Source: Sulfuriroseicoccus oceanibius (GTDB lineage: Bacteria > Verrucomicrobiota > Verrucomicrobiia > Verrucomicrobiales > SLCJ01). From it: a stretch of DNA of 64,000 nucleotides. The notes beneath the pieces were generated by a model. It made no database searches and was not told the DNA's origin. It worked only from the letters and a program-made list of their open reading frames with translations. The DNA lies in NCBI RefSeq assembly GCF_010681825.2, contig NZ_CP066776.1:1054001-1118000 (forward strand), read 5' to 3'. Shown here in pieces: positions 48,975-59,156 of the stretch; position 1 is the stretch's first letter, and each line of letters starts with the position of its first letter. Both the position numbers and the translations under genes were made by a program.

Positions 48975-49781
48975 TCAGTACTTGTAGACCTCGCCCTGGT
49001 CGGATTTGGCACCGTTGGATTTGCTAACCAAGTTGCGGACGTCCCACGTGACGACGTCATCCAATTTTGCGCGGCTGCCTTTCGAGGTGATCTTGACCAA
49101 CGAGCCGCCGTTCACTGCGCGGACGTGGTAGAGCTCGATCTTGAAGGGTGTGTTGCGGTGCTTTTTCGCGCCGTTGCCGCGCACAGCTCTGCCGAAGTCT
49201 TCGAAGATCAGGTTGCGTCCGATGAATGGTCCTTTGTGGTTCATTTGGACGATCTTGTCTTCGGCTTTGCGGGCGCCGCCACCGTCCCAGATGACGGGGC
49301 CGCCTTTGATGGTGAGGGCGTCTTCTCCGACGTCTTCGAAGTAGACGTTCTTGAGCAGGTTGTCGCCGACGCAGTAGATCCCATCGGCGCCGGGTTTGCC
49401 GATGATGAGGTTGCTGACCGAAGCCCCGCGCAGCAAGGCAAGCACAGGGCGCTGGCCCTCGCGTTGGCTGCCGTCGCCGAGCCCTTTGGCGATCAGTCGT
49501 GCGCCTTCGAAGTCGCGGTGTTCGCCTTTGCCAATGATGATCGGCTTGGTGACGATGATGTCGCGGGTGGGTTTGGGGATGCTCAGTTTGACCGGATGTT
49601 CGCGCTTGGTGGACATCCGTGGGCCATCGTGTTCGTCGGCGGCCTCAATGGCCAGCGATCCGGAGATCAGAGTGAGCAATGCGGCGAGACTGAGATGGCG
49701 GAGGTTGATGGATGGGATGCGCAAGATTTTGGTCTGGTCTGAATTGGTAAAGTGAAACCTTTGGAATACGCACCATAACAC
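48975..49781 (-). CDS. PL3-family pectate lyase-like protein, paralogue 2
   Basis: A 268-residue exported protein closely related to the neighbour: GDGSQREGQRPVLALLRGASV, GKPGADGIYCVGDNLLKNVYFEDVGEDALTIKG, PFIGRNLIFEDFGRAVRGNG. A GTG at 49781 starts the frame, but TTG at 49724 gives a cleaner signal peptide (MRIPSINLRHLSLAALLTLI). A tandem duplication has produced the pair; they differ at the His/Tyr of the DGIxC motif. Function as for the first copy; substrate likely pectin or a related uronate polysaccharide. Confidence 0.8.
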   Translation of the reverse strand: MLWCVFQRFHFTNSDQTKILRIPSINLRHLSLAALLTLISGSLAIEAADEHDGPRMSTKREHPVKLSIPKPTRDIIVTKPIIIGKGEHRDFEGARLIAKGLGDGSQREGQRPVLALLRGASVSNLIIGKPGADGIYCVGDNLLKNVYFEDVGEDALTIKGGPVIWDGGGARKAEDKIVQMNHKGPFIGRNLIFEDFGRAVRGNGAKKHRNTPFKIELYHVRAVNGGSLVKITSKGSRAKLDDVVTWDVRNLVSKSNGAKSDQGEVYKY

Positions 49782-52429: not shown

Positions 52430-55414
52430 CTATTCCCTCACTCCGTTGCCATTGATGATGGCGCTGAGTTGTTGGGCCATGGCCTGGGTGAGGTCGGGGT
52501 GTTGGGCTGAGATGTCGGTGGTTTCGGTGAGGTCTTTGGAGAGGTCGTAGAGTCTGCCTTGGACGTATTTCATGTGACCGACGCGGAGGGCTTTGACGGC
52601 TCCGGTGTTGTCTTGTTCCACGGTGAAGGCCTGACCGACGGGGTCGCTGCCAAGTAGTGCGGCGAGCGTGCTGCGGGAGTCAACGGCCGAGCCGTCCGGG
52701 AGTGGGTGGTCGAGTAGTTCGGCGATGGATGCCATCAGATCGACCTGGCTGACCAGAGCATCGGACGTGCCCGGGGTGATCTTGGCCGGCCATTTGACGA
52801 TGAATGGGACGCGGGTGCCGCCTTCCTCGATATCGTATTTTTCGCCTCGGAGCGGGCCATTGGCGTCGTGGCCTTGCTGGAAGTCATCGGCCGAGCCGTC
52901 GGTGTATCCGTCGCCATAGACGGGGCCATTGTCACTGGAGAAGATGACGATGGTGTTTTCCTCCAGGCCGGCGTCCTTGATGGCTTGAAGGATCTGGCCG
53001 GTGGTCCAATCAAACTGCACCATGGCGTCGCCGCGCCAGCCGAGGTTGGTCGCGCCTTGGAACATTTCATGTGGTGCTCGCGGGACGTGGATGTCCTGGG
53101 AGGCAAAGAAGAGGAAGAAGGGCGTCTCTCCGTCCTGGGATTTGATGTAGTCGACCGCCTTGCGGGTGAAGAGCGGGCCGAGGTCTTCGTCGCGCCAGAG
53201 GGCATCGGCACCGCCGGAGAAGAATCCGATTCTGCCGATGTTGTTGATGAAGGTGTTGCTGTGTTGGCCGTCGCTCGGATAGAGCGGGGTGGCAGAGCTG
53301 CGTGGGTGGATCGTGCTGCCGGGTTGGTTGACGGCATTGAAGTCGCGGTTGTGGACGTGGACGGGATCGTCTCCGCTGAGTGGCTTGACCGTGACCGAGC
53401 CAAGTCCGGACTGGGCGTCGTGGTGGTAATCGGCGTCGACCAGGTTGCGGTCCTGCATGAGGATGCTTGGGACGCGGTCATTGGTGGTGGGGATGACGAG
53501 GCAGTGGTCGAACCCGAGCTCGAGTGGTCCGGGTTTGATCTCGCCGTTCCATTGGATGGAGTCGTCTCCGTAGCCGAGGCCGAGGTGCCATTTTCCGATC
53601 ACCGCGGTGTGGTAGCCGTTGTCCTTGAGCATGTCCGGCAGGGTGTACATGTCCTCGGGGATGGCGAGTGGGCCTGTGGGCGGGATGATGTTCACTCCGT
53701 GGCGGAATGCGAAGATTCCGGTGAGGAGCGAGAAGCGCGATGGCGAGCAAGTGGAGGCGGTGCAATGGCCGTCGGTGAAGCGGAGGCCTTCCGCGCTGAG
53801 TTTGTCGATGTGGGGGGTGGGGATTTTGCTTTGTGGGTTGTAGGCGCGGACGTCACCGTAGCCGACGTCGTCGCCGTAGATGAAGACGATGTTCGGGCGT
53901 TTCTCACGCACCGGTCCGCGGCCGGTGACCTGGACGCGGTAGAACTGGCCTCTGTTGGGGATGAAGGGTTCGGTGAATGAGAGCGGACCGTGGTAGTCGG
54001 GGGTGATGGGATCCCCGACATTGGTCCACGATGGGGCGTCGAGTGATGCGCTGTGCTGGAGTTGGTAGGTGCGGCTGGCGAGTGCGTCGAACGTGATGCG
54101 GACCGTGCCACTGGCGGCATCGATTTCGGTGCGGCTTGGGGCGATACCCTGGGTGGGCGTGGTCCAATCCGAGCCGGCGACCATTTCCGTGAAGTCGCTG
54201 AGTGTGTCGCGGTCGAAATCCCCCTGGGACTGGTAGAGTTGCTGGATGCTGACGAGGTCGAGAAGGCTGTGGTAGATGCGGACGTCGTCGAGAGCTCCGA
54301 TGAATGGGCTGGTCCCGCCGCTGAGTGCGCCCAAGGTCAGAGGGAGCGTGGTGTCGCGCTGTCCAGGTTCGGCGATGGATTCGGCTTCAAGGACTCCGTT
54401 GACGAAGAGTCTGAGGGTTCCGCTCAGAGCGTGGCGTTGGGCGCAGATGAAGTGCCACTCGCCAGTGGAAAGGAACGAATTACTGAACGTGGCGTTGGTT
54501 GGGCCTGCGGTGAGTTTGATACGGGATCCGGATTGGTGGATGCCGATGCCATTGGCGGATGTGCCTGCGGCGTCGAGGATGCCCTTGATGCCGGTGCTTG
54601 AGTCGGACTTCATCCAGAAGCAGAGGGTGAAGTCATTGCCGAGCAGGTGCTCGAGCGTGGCGGACTGTGATCCGTTGAAGGCTGCTGCCTGTTGGTCGAT
54701 GATGCCGTCAGTGAACCCTCCGCCTGTGGTCCAGTTGGCGTCGAAGCTAGGGGACTGGAGGTTGTAGTCGAGCAGGTCGCCGTTGAGCGGAAGGTAGGCG
54801 GCGAGGTGCTCGGGTGCGTGGGCGACGTATTGCGGTGTCGGATCCGAGGTGACGGAGAGTTGGACGTTGTCGACGCGGGCGAACTCGCTGGTGGACGAGT
54901 TGCCGCGGATGAACTGAAGCCAGACCGATTTTCCCTGGTGGGCGGAAGTCACTCCAGAAATGCCTGTAATCGTGGCGCTCTGGTAGCCGGCGCCTTCTCC
55001 GAACCCGGAGACCGTGCCGCTGGCGATCTCTGCAACGGTGCCGGTGTTGGTGTTGTCGGAGGTGGTGATGAGTCTCCAGCGGATTTCGTCGTCGGCGTCC
55101 CAACCGAACTTGGGCAGCCAGTCGAAGCTGAGGTCGAAGCGGTCTCCGGAGGCAGCGCTGTGGCCGGTGGAGCAGGCTGCGCCAAGGTTGGGGTCTCCCG
55201 GGCTTTGGCCAATGACGAGTGACCATGCGCCATTGGATGCGTTGTTTTGCAAACGTTGGGTTTCGCCGCTGCCAAACCCGGTTTGCCAGTTGGTCACCGA
55301 GGTTTGGCTGTCTCCTTGCTCGAAGCTGCCGTTGAGGGAATTCGAGTTGATCAATGGGGAGGCGGAAAGAGCCGCCGTAGAAAAGAGGGCGAACGCGAAC
55401 GGTCGGAAAGTCAT
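52430..55414 (-). CDS. Exported sulfatase (S1, formylglycine-type) with two N-terminal modules
   Basis: A 994-residue protein. Signal peptide MTFRPFAFALFSTAALSAS. Module one (about 22-205) is homologous to the whole mature part of the adjacent PEP-CTERM protein (GDRFDLSFDWLPKFGWD, FARVDNVQLSV). Module two (about 215-420) is LamG-like. A short FDRDTLSDFTEMV element follows, then the S1 sulfatase (about 505-990): RPNIVFIYGDDVGYGD with two metal Asp, and CSPSR with Cys556 to be converted to formylglycine, GKWHLGLGY and NGPVYGDG. It would remove sulfate from polysaccharides such as algal or animal glycans. No formylglycine-generating enzyme is nearby. Confidence 0.92.
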   Translation of the reverse strand: MTFRPFAFALFSTAALSASPLINSNSLNGSFEQGDSQTSVTNWQTGFGSGETQRLQNNASNGAWSLVIGQSPGDPNLGAACSTGHSAASGDRFDLSFDWLPKFGWDADDEIRWRLITTSDNTNTGTVAEIASGTVSGFGEGAGYQSATITGISGVTSAHQGKSVWLQFIRGNSSTSEFARVDNVQLSVTSDPTPQYVAHAPEHLAAYLPLNGDLLDYNLQSPSFDANWTTGGGFTDGIIDQQAAAFNGSQSATLEHLLGNDFTLCFWMKSDSSTGIKGILDAAGTSANGIGIHQSGSRIKLTAGPTNATFSNSFLSTGEWHFICAQRHALSGTLRLFVNGVLEAESIAEPGQRDTTLPLTLGALSGGTSPFIGALDDVRIYHSLLDLVSIQQLYQSQGDFDRDTLSDFTEMVAGSDWTTPTQGIAPSRTEIDAASGTVRITFDALASRTYQLQHSASLDAPSWTNVGDPITPDYHGPLSFTEPFIPNRGQFYRVQVTGRGPVREKRPNIVFIYGDDVGYGDVRAYNPQSKIPTPHIDKLSAEGLRFTDGHCTASTCSPSRFSLLTGIFAFRHGVNIIPPTGPLAIPEDMYTLPDMLKDNGYHTAVIGKWHLGLGYGDDSIQWNGEIKPGPLELGFDHCLVIPTTNDRVPSILMQDRNLVDADYHHDAQSGLGSVTVKPLSGDDPVHVHNRDFNAVNQPGSTIHPRSSATPLYPSDGQHSNTFINNIGRIGFFSGGADALWRDEDLGPLFTRKAVDYIKSQDGETPFFLFFASQDIHVPRAPHEMFQGATNLGWRGDAMVQFDWTTGQILQAIKDAGLEENTIVIFSSDNGPVYGDGYTDGSADDFQQGHDANGPLRGEKYDIEEGGTRVPFIVKWPAKITPGTSDALVSQVDLMASIAELLDHPLPDGSAVDSRSTLAALLGSDPVGQAFTVEQDNTGAVKALRVGHMKYVQGRLYDLSKDLTETTDISAQHPDLTQAMAQQLSAIINGNGVRE

Positions 55415-55451
55415 CAGTCGTGAGGCAGAGGCCGGGGCAAGGGGAGGGTGT

Positions 55452-55487
55452 GCCGGCCGACTGCGCCGGTGGGCGCAATCGGCCGGC
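55452..55487 (-). terminator. Long GC hairpin between the PEP-CTERM gene and the sulfatase gene
   Basis: A 15-bp near-perfect stem, GCCGGCCGA-TGCGCC with GGCGCA-TCGGCCGGC, one C-A mismatch, no T-tract on the minus strand. It could attenuate read-through or protect the upstream transcript end. Confidence 0.65.
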
Positions 55488-55503
55488 TTGGGGTTGGGTC
55501 GGA

Positions 55504-56175
55504 TTACTTACGGCGGCGGAGGATCAATGTGAGTCCTCCGAGTCCGAGGAGTGCCGCGGAGGTCGGTTCAGGTACGGCTGCCACAGTAGTCACTGAGAGG
55601 GAGACGTCGTCGAGGCGGGCGAAGGAGCCTTGAGCGTTGTTGGAGCCGTCCAAGTCTATGGTATTGCCGGTGAACGAGATGAAGAGAGTTCTTCCCGCAG
55701 CGTTGATGTCGGCGCCGGTGGTCATAGCGAAGGTTTCGGTTTCCCAGGTCACGTCGGTAACTTCACTGCCGCTGTTGAAGGTGAAGAGACTGGTGCGGGC
55801 GCCGTCGATCGCATCGGTGTCGGTGTAGAACAACGTCATGTCGATGCTTTCGCCGGTATCCCAGCCGAAGGCGTCGCGCCAAGCGAACGATCCGCTGAAG
55901 CGGTCTCCCAAAGCGATGGTGTAGCCTGTGTTCTGGGCCAAAGAGATGTTCGGGTTTCCGTTGATTTCGGAGCCGATGACTGCGTTTCGCCCGCCGCTGC
56001 CAGGTGAATTGAGATTGGTATTGAACTGGGTAGTTTCGCCGGCGTTGGCAGCGGTCCAAAGGGAGGTGTCGGTGAAGTCACCGCCGCGAATAGCGCCGTC
56101 GATGATGGTGGTGGCGGCTTGTGCGGATGCCGCGAGGGCGAGTGCACCTGCCGTGATGAGCATGTTTTTTTTCAT
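55504..56175 (-). CDS. PEP-CTERM sorting-domain protein sharing its fold with the sulfatase N-terminus
   Basis: A 223-residue exported protein. Signal peptide MKKNMLITAGALALAASAQA. The mature domain (about 25-195) has GETTQFNTN, IALGDRFSGSFAWRDAFGWD and FARLDDVSLSV, matching module one of the sulfatase. C-terminal PEP-CTERM signal: VPEPTSA, hydrophobic GLGGLTLIL and RRRK. It lies 89 bases upstream of the sulfatase on the same strand, so the two may be cotranscribed. The shared domain may be a carbohydrate-binding module (inference). Confidence 0.86.
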   Translation of the reverse strand: MKKNMLITAGALALAASAQAATTIIDGAIRGGDFTDTSLWTAANAGETTQFNTNLNSPGSGGRNAVIGSEINGNPNISLAQNTGYTIALGDRFSGSFAWRDAFGWDTGESIDMTLFYTDTDAIDGARTSLFTFNSGSEVTDVTWETETFAMTTGADINAAGRTLFISFTGNTIDLDGSNNAQGSFARLDDVSLSVTTVAAVPEPTSAALLGLGGLTLILRRRK

Positions 56176-56413: not shown

Positions 56414-57070
56414 TCAGATCAGACCATTTCGCAGGGCCTTGCCGACGGCTCCTGCTTGTGAGTTGACATGCAACTTTTTGTAAATGTTGCGCAGGTGGTA
56501 ATCCACGGTGACTGGGGCGATCCCAAGTTGGTAGGCGATTTCCTTTTTGATTTCTCCGTCGGCCAGGAGGTTGAGGATTTTGATCTCTTTTTCGCTGAGG
56601 CTTTGGTCCTCCGCTGCCGGTGGGGCTTTCTTAAAGAGCTCGAGTACCATCGATGCGATGGCACCGCTGAGCGGGGATCCGCCATCGGCGACCATGTGGA
56701 TGCCGTCGACGATGTCTGAGAAGTCGTCGTTCTTGAGTAGGTAGCCGGATGCGCCGGCGCAGATTGCGCTGACGACGGTTTGGCGGTTCTCGGAGATGGT
56801 GAGGACGATGGTGCAGAGTGCGGGGTGCGAGGCGTTGACCTGGCGGATGAGCTCGATCCCATTGGCGCCCGGGAGTTGAATGTCGACCAGCATGACATCC
56901 GGGGCGGGATTGGTCGCCAGCGCTGCCAGAGCGTCTTCCGCGGTGCTGAAGCTTTGCTGGCAGGTGATGGTGGGTTCGTCGTCGAGCAGCTCGGTCAGCT
57001 CAAGGCGGAAGGCGTCGGAATCTTCTACGACCCAGACGTTGGTGGTGGCGCGTGGCGGGTGTGGGGTCAT
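56414..57070 (-). CDS. NarL/LuxR-family response regulator
   Basis: A 218-residue response regulator. Receiver domain: VVEDSDAFRLELTELL (acidic pocket), VMLVDIQLPGANG with phospho-Asp about 58, and GYLLKNDD with the conserved Lys. The LuxR-type HTH (about 150-215) has LSEKEIKILNLLADGEIKKEIA and VDYHLRNIYKKL. It is 10 bases downstream of the kinase gene on the same strand, so they form one operon. Likely target: the neighbouring PEP-CTERM and sulfatase genes (inference). Confidence 0.94.
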   Translation of the reverse strand: MTPHPPRATTNVWVVEDSDAFRLELTELLDDEPTITCQQSFSTAEDALAALATNPAPDVMLVDIQLPGANGIELIRQVNASHPALCTIVLTISENRQTVVSAICAGASGYLLKNDDFSDIVDGIHMVADGGSPLSGAIASMVLELFKKAPPAAEDQSLSEKEIKILNLLADGEIKKEIAYQLGIAPVTVDYHLRNIYKKLHVNSQAGAVGKALRNGLI

Positions 57071-57080
57071 AGGTTTGGGG

Positions 57081-59156
57081 TCAATGGATTGGGACTTGCA
57101 GGGACACCGTGGTGCCTTGGCCTTCGGCGCTCTTCACGTCATAGGATGCCTTCAATCTGATGGCACGGTCGCGCATGTTGCGCAAGCCGTGGTGCTGGGA
57201 CACCGAGCGCGGCTGGCAGTCGTTGGCTGTGGGGGTGAAGCCTGATCCGTTGTCTGAGATGGTGATGCGGAGTGATTTTGCAACCCAGGAAATCTCGACT
57301 TTGATCACCGACGCGTTTGCGTGGGAGGATGCGTTGTGGAGCGCTTCGCGGAAGAACTGCAAGATGTCGCGTTTGGTTCCGACGCTGATGGTGCGCTTCG
57401 GCAGTTGGCTGAGCGAAGGGATCTGGAGTTCCAGCGTCTCGCTGGGGATGCGTCTCTGGGCGGTGTAGGAGAGCTTCTCGACGAGTTCAGTCAGGGTGTC
57501 GGTGTCTTTGTCGGTGAGCCAGAGGACGTCGCGTAAGCTTTGATGCATGTCGTGCGCTATGTCGTGGATTCGTTCCCCTCGTTCGCGGACCCTTGGCTCG
57601 GTCGCGTGCTTCTTCACATAGGTGGAGGCGAGGCTAATGGCGGCGACTTTGCTGCCCACGTCGTCGTGAAGGTCTGAGCTGATCTGCTTCCTGAGTTTCA
57701 GGTTCTGCCGCCTTTTGCTGAGCGCGAGGATGATAATGGTCGCGATAACAGCGATCGCGACCGCCGCGGACGTTATGCCCTTGATCCATGTGATGAAGTT
57801 CTGCCAACGGGTTTCGGTCGCTTCCAGCTGGGTTTGCAGGGTGCGTAATTCGGCGTCGATCTGTTTGGCCGTTGCCAGTTGCTGTAGCCAGTCGACGAGG
57901 TCGATCACTTGTCTGCCTTGTGCGTGGCCGTCTACCAGCAGCGCACCGGCTGATTCGAGCTGGTGCCCTCCAATTGAGAGGGTCACCGGGCGCTGGTTGC
58001 TGAGCGGAGCGTCTTGCTGGCTGACCACGATCTCGCCCATAGAAAATACCGCGGTCTCTTGGTGGATAGGGAAGTGGTTGCAGTGGATGCGCACAAAGCG
58101 GCCGAACGCATGGAGGCCGGGGATGTGGACGATGTTGTTGTCCGGGTTTTCGAAGAGGGATTGCTTGAGAACCGTGCTCGTTTCTCCGCGTTGCCCGTTT
58201 GGGAGGGAGCGGGCGATGTCGATTTTGATAGAGCCGGGGAACCCGTAGCCCGGGACTGCGATGGTCTCCGGGCTCTGTGCGGGGAGTAGGTCGATCCATC
58301 CGATGTGGGTGTTCCGCCCGAGGTCGATTTCGATGATGAGCGGGGCATCGGTCACGGAGGTGTCCATCGGGAGGACGAGATCGGGCGCGCATTCTGCCAA
58401 TTCGCCAAGCGGGAGACCCAGCACGCCGGATTCGTGGTTAATGTAATCCGTGCTCCAATAGGGTTTCGCCTCGAAACTGGATGATGCTTTTGCTGCGCTG
58501 ATCTTGCGGACCTCATTGCTGACGATCATGTGCGCGCGGGCGAGAGCGAAGAACTCCCGATCTCCTTCCTGCTGGCCTCGGTACACTTCCATCCGTGGCT
58601 GCTGAGAAGTAAACGATGGCGAATGGAAGTACACCGGGTGCAGACCGGGGTCGGGGAAATCTTGCTGGGTCCAGTCAGCGATGATTGTTTCTTTGTTTGC
58701 GGGGCCGGTGACGATCCGGAACCTTTTTGGGAAGCCGTAGCTCTTTTCTTCGCTCAGATTGCGGTGGTCATGAGCGGGGACCAGTACGAGGTCGAGCGGG
58801 CCATTGAGGAATGGGGTTTGGAATTCCATTACCCAGCGGGGCTTGCTGGGCAGGGGCTCTTCAGTTGGCAGGTATGAGCTGTGGTAGCCAAAAGAGCTGG
58901 CAAGTTGCGGGGTACGGAGGGGCTGCATCTTGTCCAGCTCTATGCGCAGGTCTGTGATGCGTGCGTTCAGATCGCGGATGTGGCCTGGGATCTTATAGAG
59001 CGGAAGGTGGTCGGGGCTGAGGTCGCTGGCGTAGGGCCTGTGTTCCAATGGGGATCGGGGATCTCCCACGCGTGCTTCCTCTTCGGGCTGGGTGCTCCCG
59101 TGGGTAATCGAAAGGGCGTAGCAGAGGGCGGCGATGGTTCTAGCGAGTGTGCGCAT
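57081..59156 (-). CDS. HisKA_3 sensor kinase with discoidin-like periplasmic sensor
   Basis: A 691-residue sensor. N-terminal signal/anchor (TIAALCYALSITHGS). A large periplasmic region contains an F5/8-type C (discoidin-like) fold around residues 225-400: DAPLIIEIDLGRNTHIGWIDLLP, VRIHCNHFPI and the closing GEIVV. One transmembrane helix follows near 455-475 (SAAVAIAVIATIIILAL). The HisKA_3 box QISSDLHDDVGSKVAAISLA has its phospho-His at about residue 498, then HATPase: REALHNASSHANAS (N box), ISDNGSGFTPTA (G1), HGLRNMRDRAIRL. It probably senses a carbohydrate ligand and phosphorylates the LuxR regulator 10 bases downstream. Confidence 0.88.
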   Translation of the reverse strand: MRTLARTIAALCYALSITHGSTQPEEEARVGDPRSPLEHRPYASDLSPDHLPLYKIPGHIRDLNARITDLRIELDKMQPLRTPQLASSFGYHSSYLPTEEPLPSKPRWVMEFQTPFLNGPLDLVLVPAHDHRNLSEEKSYGFPKRFRIVTGPANKETIIADWTQQDFPDPGLHPVYFHSPSFTSQQPRMEVYRGQQEGDREFFALARAHMIVSNEVRKISAAKASSSFEAKPYWSTDYINHESGVLGLPLGELAECAPDLVLPMDTSVTDAPLIIEIDLGRNTHIGWIDLLPAQSPETIAVPGYGFPGSIKIDIARSLPNGQRGETSTVLKQSLFENPDNNIVHIPGLHAFGRFVRIHCNHFPIHQETAVFSMGEIVVSQQDAPLSNQRPVTLSIGGHQLESAGALLVDGHAQGRQVIDLVDWLQQLATAKQIDAELRTLQTQLEATETRWQNFITWIKGITSAAVAIAVIATIIILALSKRRQNLKLRKQISSDLHDDVGSKVAAISLASTYVKKHATEPRVRERGERIHDIAHDMHQSLRDVLWLTDKDTDTLTELVEKLSYTAQRRIPSETLELQIPSLSQLPKRTISVGTKRDILQFFREALHNASSHANASVIKVEISWVAKSLRITISDNGSGFTPTANDCQPRSVSQHHGLRNMRDRAIRLKASYDVKSAEGQGTTVSLQVPIH

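Follow-up and report, generated by a model that had tools for sequence, protein, structure and literature searches.

Gene Organization of the Locus

The window, i.e., the whole stretch of 64,000 nucleotides of the Sulfuriroseicoccus oceanibius genome analyzed here, contains two adjacent genes on the same strand. The first encodes a small PEP-CTERM protein and the second a multidomain secreted sulfatase (Table 1). The sulfatase is composed of a signal peptide, a module shared with the PEP-CTERM protein, a LamG-like domain, a TSP3-like and beta region, and an S1 sulfatase domain; the Pfam search found no PEP-CTERM motif in it. Two regulatory genes upstream are tied to the pair solely by their position. 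A pectate lyase (PF03211, 2e-39) is encoded near the gene pair at window positions 48975-49781 (-).

Table 1. Features of the gene pair and its upstream genes (window positions)
Feature	Position	Strand	Remarks
Multidomain secreted sulfatase gene	52430..55414	(-)	994 aa; 89 bp downstream of the PEP-CTERM gene
S1 sulfatase catalytic domain	52709..53896	(-)	Residues 507-902; PF00884, 6.2e-50
Laminin_G_3 (ConA-like) domain	54257..54652	(-)	Residues 255-386; PF13385, 3.3e-20
Shared CBM-like module, sulfatase	54842..55357	(-)	Residues ~20-191, directly behind the signal peptide
Hairpin between the two genes	55452..55487	(-)	16 pairs (one G-U); -40.8 kcal/mol, z -5
PEP-CTERM protein gene	55504..56175	(-)	223 aa; 5'-most gene of the pair
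PEP-CTERM sorting motif	55510..55578	(-)	Residues 200-222; PF07589, TIGR02595
Shared CBM-like module, PEP-CTERM protein	55585..56109	(-)	Residues ~23-197, the whole mature protein
LuxR-type response regulator	56414..57070	(-)	PF00072, PF00196; upstream, same strand
Sensor histidine kinase	57081..59156	(-)	PF07730, PF02518; upstream, same strand

The C-terminus of the PEP-CTERM protein comprises the PEP motif, a hydrophobic stretch and a basic end, and scores above the cut-offs of both PF07589 (22.8 vs. 20.7 bits) and TIGR02595 (26.3 vs. 16). The genome encodes two exosortases (PF09721, above cut-off), and the protein is presumably anchored at the cell surface. Elsewhere in this genome, PEP-CTERM genes also occur in tandem arrays of three to five (L133-L136).

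Neither a U-run nor a terminator match was found at the hairpin between the two genes. It is unlikely to be a terminator and perhaps acts as an attenuator or mRNA stabilizer. Under a strict rule, a hairpin plus U-run follows 23 of the 32 other PEP-CTERM genes of the genome, and the deviating hairpin thus makes read-through from the PEP-CTERM gene into the sulfatase gene plausible; the pair may then be co-transcribed. The hairpin between another PEP-CTERM gene of this genome (L130:6041-6790) and its sulfatase gene likewise lacks a clear U-run.

The Two Copies Are Homologous Along the Entire Domain

The sequence-only reading proposed that the sulfatase carries the same N-terminal domain as its PEP-CTERM neighbor, and this is borne out. 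BLASTP aligns sulfatase residues 27-206 with residues 25-207 of the PEP-CTERM protein (58 bits, E 6e-14, 29% identity over 192 aa), and the sulfatase ranks second (1.8e-13) when the whole genome is searched with the PEP-CTERM protein. The pair scores 177 by Smith-Waterman, with shuffled sequences averaging 42 +/- 7 (Z 18), and a profile-profile comparison of the two subfamilies yields a probability of 99.5 and an E-value of 1.8e-22 over 171 columns. The signal also extends beyond the short motifs named in the proposal, which thereby withstands its own refuting condition of no significant profile score outside them: after masking of GDRF...FGWD and FAR...LSV, Z is still 5.4, with 1 of 2000 shuffles being equally good. 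A profile of 35 relatives, from which the window proteins were excluded, matches the two proteins both at full length (1.8e-17 and 3.8e-32) and with the motifs masked (1.3e-5 and 6e-17). Since there is signal both inside and outside the masked motifs, the homology of the two copies is real along the entire domain. As first described, the domain takes up nearly all of the mature PEP-CTERM protein, but in the sulfatase it ends near residue 191 and not at residue 205.

Predicted Fold of the Module

Searches of Pfam and NCBIfam returned no family for the shared segment, either in the two window proteins or in 37 aligned relatives. A broad alignment of relatives gave no conserved stretch, while a closer subset gave one; W, G and T positions of the module are conserved across phyla, and the conserved Trp residues lie at module positions 24, 80 and 86. 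AlphaFold2 models built on the 37-sequence alignment reach a pLDDT of 84.9 for the sulfatase module and 85.1 for the module of the PEP-CTERM protein, each with a pTM of 0.85. Foldseek searches against the PDB matched the former to CBM4/16/22/61 and Stig cyclases and the latter to CBM16/22 and HpiC1-type cyclases, with E-values of 1e-4 to 1e-6 (best 8e-6 and 2.5e-6 for the two models) and TM-scores mostly of 0.55-0.74. By Foldseek, both predicted models have a beta-sandwich CBM fold and match the same PDB neighbors.

At the sequence level, none of the 37 members matches a CBM family profile up to E = 1, neither window copy matches PF22825 (HpiC1-like), and querying PDB sequences with a profile of the module returned a chance antibody match alone. 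In an open-access library, we found no paper on the module. From the predicted models, we read the shared segment as an unnamed and undescribed family of about 175 residues within the CBM-type beta-sandwich fold.

Distribution and Architectures

A domain search through the S. oceanibius genome, as the sequence-only reading had suggested, finds strong copies of the module in the two neighbors only (E 4.7e-58 and 2.2e-53). The next match (1.2e-5) is the N-terminal HpiC1-like domain of a sialidase, a weak relative that does pass PF22825 (31.5 vs. a cut-off of 27 bits). This sialidase is 1961 aa long and contains two BNR sialidase units in addition (G000:C1 ~863800-869700; L093:5316-11201). The module as a generic PEP-CTERM trait was considered and rejected: neither the family profile nor the sulfatase module had a match in any further PEP-CTERM protein of this genome.

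A first scan of genome contigs with the single sulfatase module as query returned nothing. The module is present in 16 of the 388 genomes of the phylum sample and at 25 loci, some of them on the same contigs, from named records of Verrucomicrobiota, Kiritimatiellota and Planctomycetota. It stands alone with a PEP-CTERM motif in six cases (L052, L053, L060, L108, L115, L118), and module plus PEP-CTERM motif end a larger protein in L107. Sulfatases carry it at the N-terminus (L098, L099, L102) or, in Akkermansiaceae, in the C-terminal half (L116, L120-L122, L124, L125). It is N-terminal in PhoD-type phosphatases (L054-L056, L119-L124) and C-terminal in GH16 proteins (L097, L098). A Pontiellaceae protein (L051) combines a C-terminal module with a CBM6 domain; we take it to be a GH5-like glycosidase, a tentative call from the sequence, as that part has no Pfam match. 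In L059, one protein has three tandem module copies. At L100:4230-6706, module and sulfatase lie in two overlapping frames that form one gene in the relative L099; the split is a frameshift or sequencing error.

The module might act in surface proteins as a generic beta-sandwich spacer with no common ligand, its presence in two neighbors being incidental. Such a spacer would agree with the commonness of the fold, with the divergence of the copies to about 30% identity, and with PEP-CTERM proteins often being beta-rich and poorly conserved outside the cell. However, in a comparison of about 40 PEP-CTERM proteins and long sulfatases from the same genome, these two were the sole pair with a match through the module. 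Together with the repeated fusion to secreted enzymes and the W, G and T positions kept across phyla, this renders the spacer rather unlikely.

Origin of the Copies

In a tree of 51 sequences, the sulfatase module does not group with its neighbor but with two PEP-CTERM proteins (L053, L052) and a 966-aa protein (L050), with supports of 98/80 and 98/87. Accordingly, it shares 40-43% identity with stand-alone PEP-CTERM proteins from other families and about 30% with its neighbor. Forcing the window pair to be sisters costs 34 log units (p-AU 0.0136). The earlier suggestion of a duplication between the two genes is, as a recent local event, therefore disfavored on two counts: sisterhood is rejected, and the sulfatase copy falls in with PEP-CTERM proteins from different families (98/87). 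Although the genes are adjacent and the genome has no further strong copy, we regard this origin as very improbable.

Forcing all sulfatase modules into one clade is far more costly (203 log units, p-AU ~1e-63), and the sulfatase label changes at least five times on the tree. Sulfatases have thus acquired the module on several independent occasions; some branches are long (L102, L101, L058, L050), which makes the exact count uncertain. In Akkermansiaceae, the sulfatase modules nest inside a clade of PhoD-type phosphatase modules, and the simplest reading is that the module was copied between neighboring genes. There, sulfatases bearing the module in the C-terminal half are repeatedly encoded near a PhoD-type phosphatase that has it close to the N-terminus (L116, L120-L122, L124, L125, L127). 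The distance between the two genes is 5 bp, on one strand, in L121, L122 and L124; in L116, L120 and L125 it is about 2.3 kb.

The Sulfatases and Their PEP-CTERM Neighbors

The catalytic domain of the window sulfatase contains C-S-P-S-R at about residue 556 (read in the translation), corresponding to the formylglycine motif C-x-P-S-R. Its nearest solved structures are S1_15B and S1_15A sulfatases and a GalNAc-6-O-sulfatase (E 1e-118 to 1e-113, best 3.6e-118), and by these closest solved relatives it would be an S1_15-like enzyme. Other sulfatases that bear or adjoin the module have their nearest solved structures in the S1_19 type (iota- and kappa-carrageenan sulfatases) and the S1_16 type. 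All these nearest structures are named for GalNAc-6-sulfate or carrageenan, and sulfatases of the S1_15, S1_19 and S1_16 types act on galactose-configured sugars. On this analogy, sulfated galactans or GalNAc glycans would be the candidate ligand class of the module.

The gene order of the window recurs in another lineage (L060/L113 and L111, 64 bp apart), where a stand-alone PEP-CTERM copy lies directly 5' of an S1_15-like sulfatase gene, but that sulfatase lacks the module. The module protein of L050 is followed by two sulfatases, one of them S1_16-like, and two sulfatases are encoded close to that of L059, in a genome (G402) with four detected. Other genomes have 57 to over 78 scored sulfatases in 3-6 Mb, and in several genomes proximity is therefore weak evidence. 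In the genome of S. oceanibius, 18 sulfatases were counted, with about 40 matches including PEP-CTERM tails. Here, PEP-CTERM genes also lie directly 5' of two other multidomain sulfatase genes, at ~3,255,500 and ~1,161,500 (L130:3012-9685 and L129:3946-9276); none of the other long sulfatases of this genome was found to share modules with its PEP-CTERM neighbor. By a rough estimate of our own, three such neighbors exceed chance, as about 0.25 are expected (41 x 18 / ~3000 genes).

Proposed Function

We consider it fairly probable that the two genes encode copies of a CBM4/16/22-fold module absent from Pfam and NCBIfam, common to an exosortase-anchored protein and a secreted S1_15-like sulfatase, both intended for the same glycan class. 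Via the exosortase system, the PEP-CTERM protein would expose the module by itself, either at the cell surface or within the exopolysaccharide, while in the sulfatase it would serve as an N-terminal accessory domain. Both copies would recognize the same, probably sulfated and galactose-type, class of glycans: the anchored copy would tether the glycan to the cell surface, and the enzyme copy would hold the sulfatase on it. Ligand binding by the module, like the identity of its ligand, is presumed here from fold and context. The CBM-like fold and the fusion partners make the earlier suggestion that both copies bind the same polysaccharide plausible.

In favor of this common-glycan function are the adjacent same-strand genes and the fusion partners (sulfatases, PhoD-type phosphatases, GH16, a CBM6-domain protein). 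It is further supported by the homology within and beyond the motifs, the two confident models with common PDB neighbors, the PF22825 match of the weak relative in the sialidase, the repeated gains by sulfatases, the stand-alone copy 5' of an S1_15-like sulfatase in another lineage, the structural types of the sulfatases bearing or adjoining the module, the two exosortases, and a hairpin that is compatible with read-through. Against it count the occurrence of the CBM fold in non-binding and enzymatic proteins (Stig cyclases) and the fact that the gene pair was not found in the one same-genus and the one same-family genome sampled. As the copies are just about 30% identical, their ligands may also differ. 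Given its repeated and separate fusion to sulfatases in relatives, the module probably serves bacteria of the superphylum as a means of keeping such enzymes attached to sulfated sugars.

The module could instead target the producer's own matrix or dock to like modules, the enzyme copy sitting on the same exopolysaccharide or on the anchored copy, so that the sulfatase is kept at the cell. An anchored and a free copy in adjacent genes would suit such an arrangement, as would the Akkermansiaceae sulfatase and PhoD neighbors that both bear the module and the link between PEP-CTERM proteins and loci for exopolysaccharides (Haft et al., 2006, as cited in PMC4960237). Yet many module-bearing enzymes have no module-bearing PEP-CTERM neighbor, and the three tandem copies of L059 speak against simple pairing; we hold it to be quite unlikely.

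Returning to a common glycan, a wider reading is possible but doubtful: an undescribed, superphylum-wide carbohydrate-binding family that links exosortase-anchored receptors with secreted sulfatases and phosphatases. The anchored copy would capture a sulfated glycan and the adjacently encoded, module-bearing enzyme would desulfate it there, as an exosortase-based counterpart of the glycan-capture systems of Bacteroidota.

The extracellular role of PEP-CTERM proteins is largely unknown. Here, the whole mature part of such a protein corresponds to the accessory domain of an adjacent sulfatase, and the pair offers a direct, testable hypothesis (glycan binding) along with a candidate ligand class. 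A defined module family would also aid the annotation of accessory regions in sulfatases, PhoD-type phosphatases and GH16 enzymes of sulfatase-rich bacteria of the superphylum.

Comparison With Known Systems

The module resembles CBM4, CBM16 and CBM22 in its predicted beta-sandwich fold, in its accessory position in secreted enzymes and in the order of its elements (NGxF at the N-terminus, F-x-R-x-D-N/D-V-x-L at the C-terminus). Unlike these, it has no Pfam CBM sequence match, its TM-scores stay within the range given above, and its partners are sulfatases, PhoD-type phosphatases and PEP-CTERM proteins. The fold is likewise that of the HpiC1-like or Stig cyclases, and weak relatives of the module match PF22825, whereas the window copies do not; the cyclases are enzymes of cyanobacterial alkaloid pathways.

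With other PEP-CTERM/exosortase surface proteins the smaller window protein has in common the PEP-CTERM motif, the signal peptide and the exosortases of its genome, but its mature part is a module that also serves as an enzyme accessory domain. The sulfatase is close to solved S1_15 enzymes (Gal/GalNAc-6-O-sulfatases) in its catalytic domain and its C-S-P-S-R motif, and differs from them by about 500 extra N-terminal residues, which comprise the shared module and the LamG-like, TSP3-like and beta region. Agar and carrageenan support the growth of Pontiella agarivorans, a bacterium with 165 sulfatases, and in its genome sulfatases occur near glycoside hydrolases and sometimes near histidine kinases and response regulators (PMC10880615); the window pair, too, has a kinase and a LuxR-type regulator upstream.
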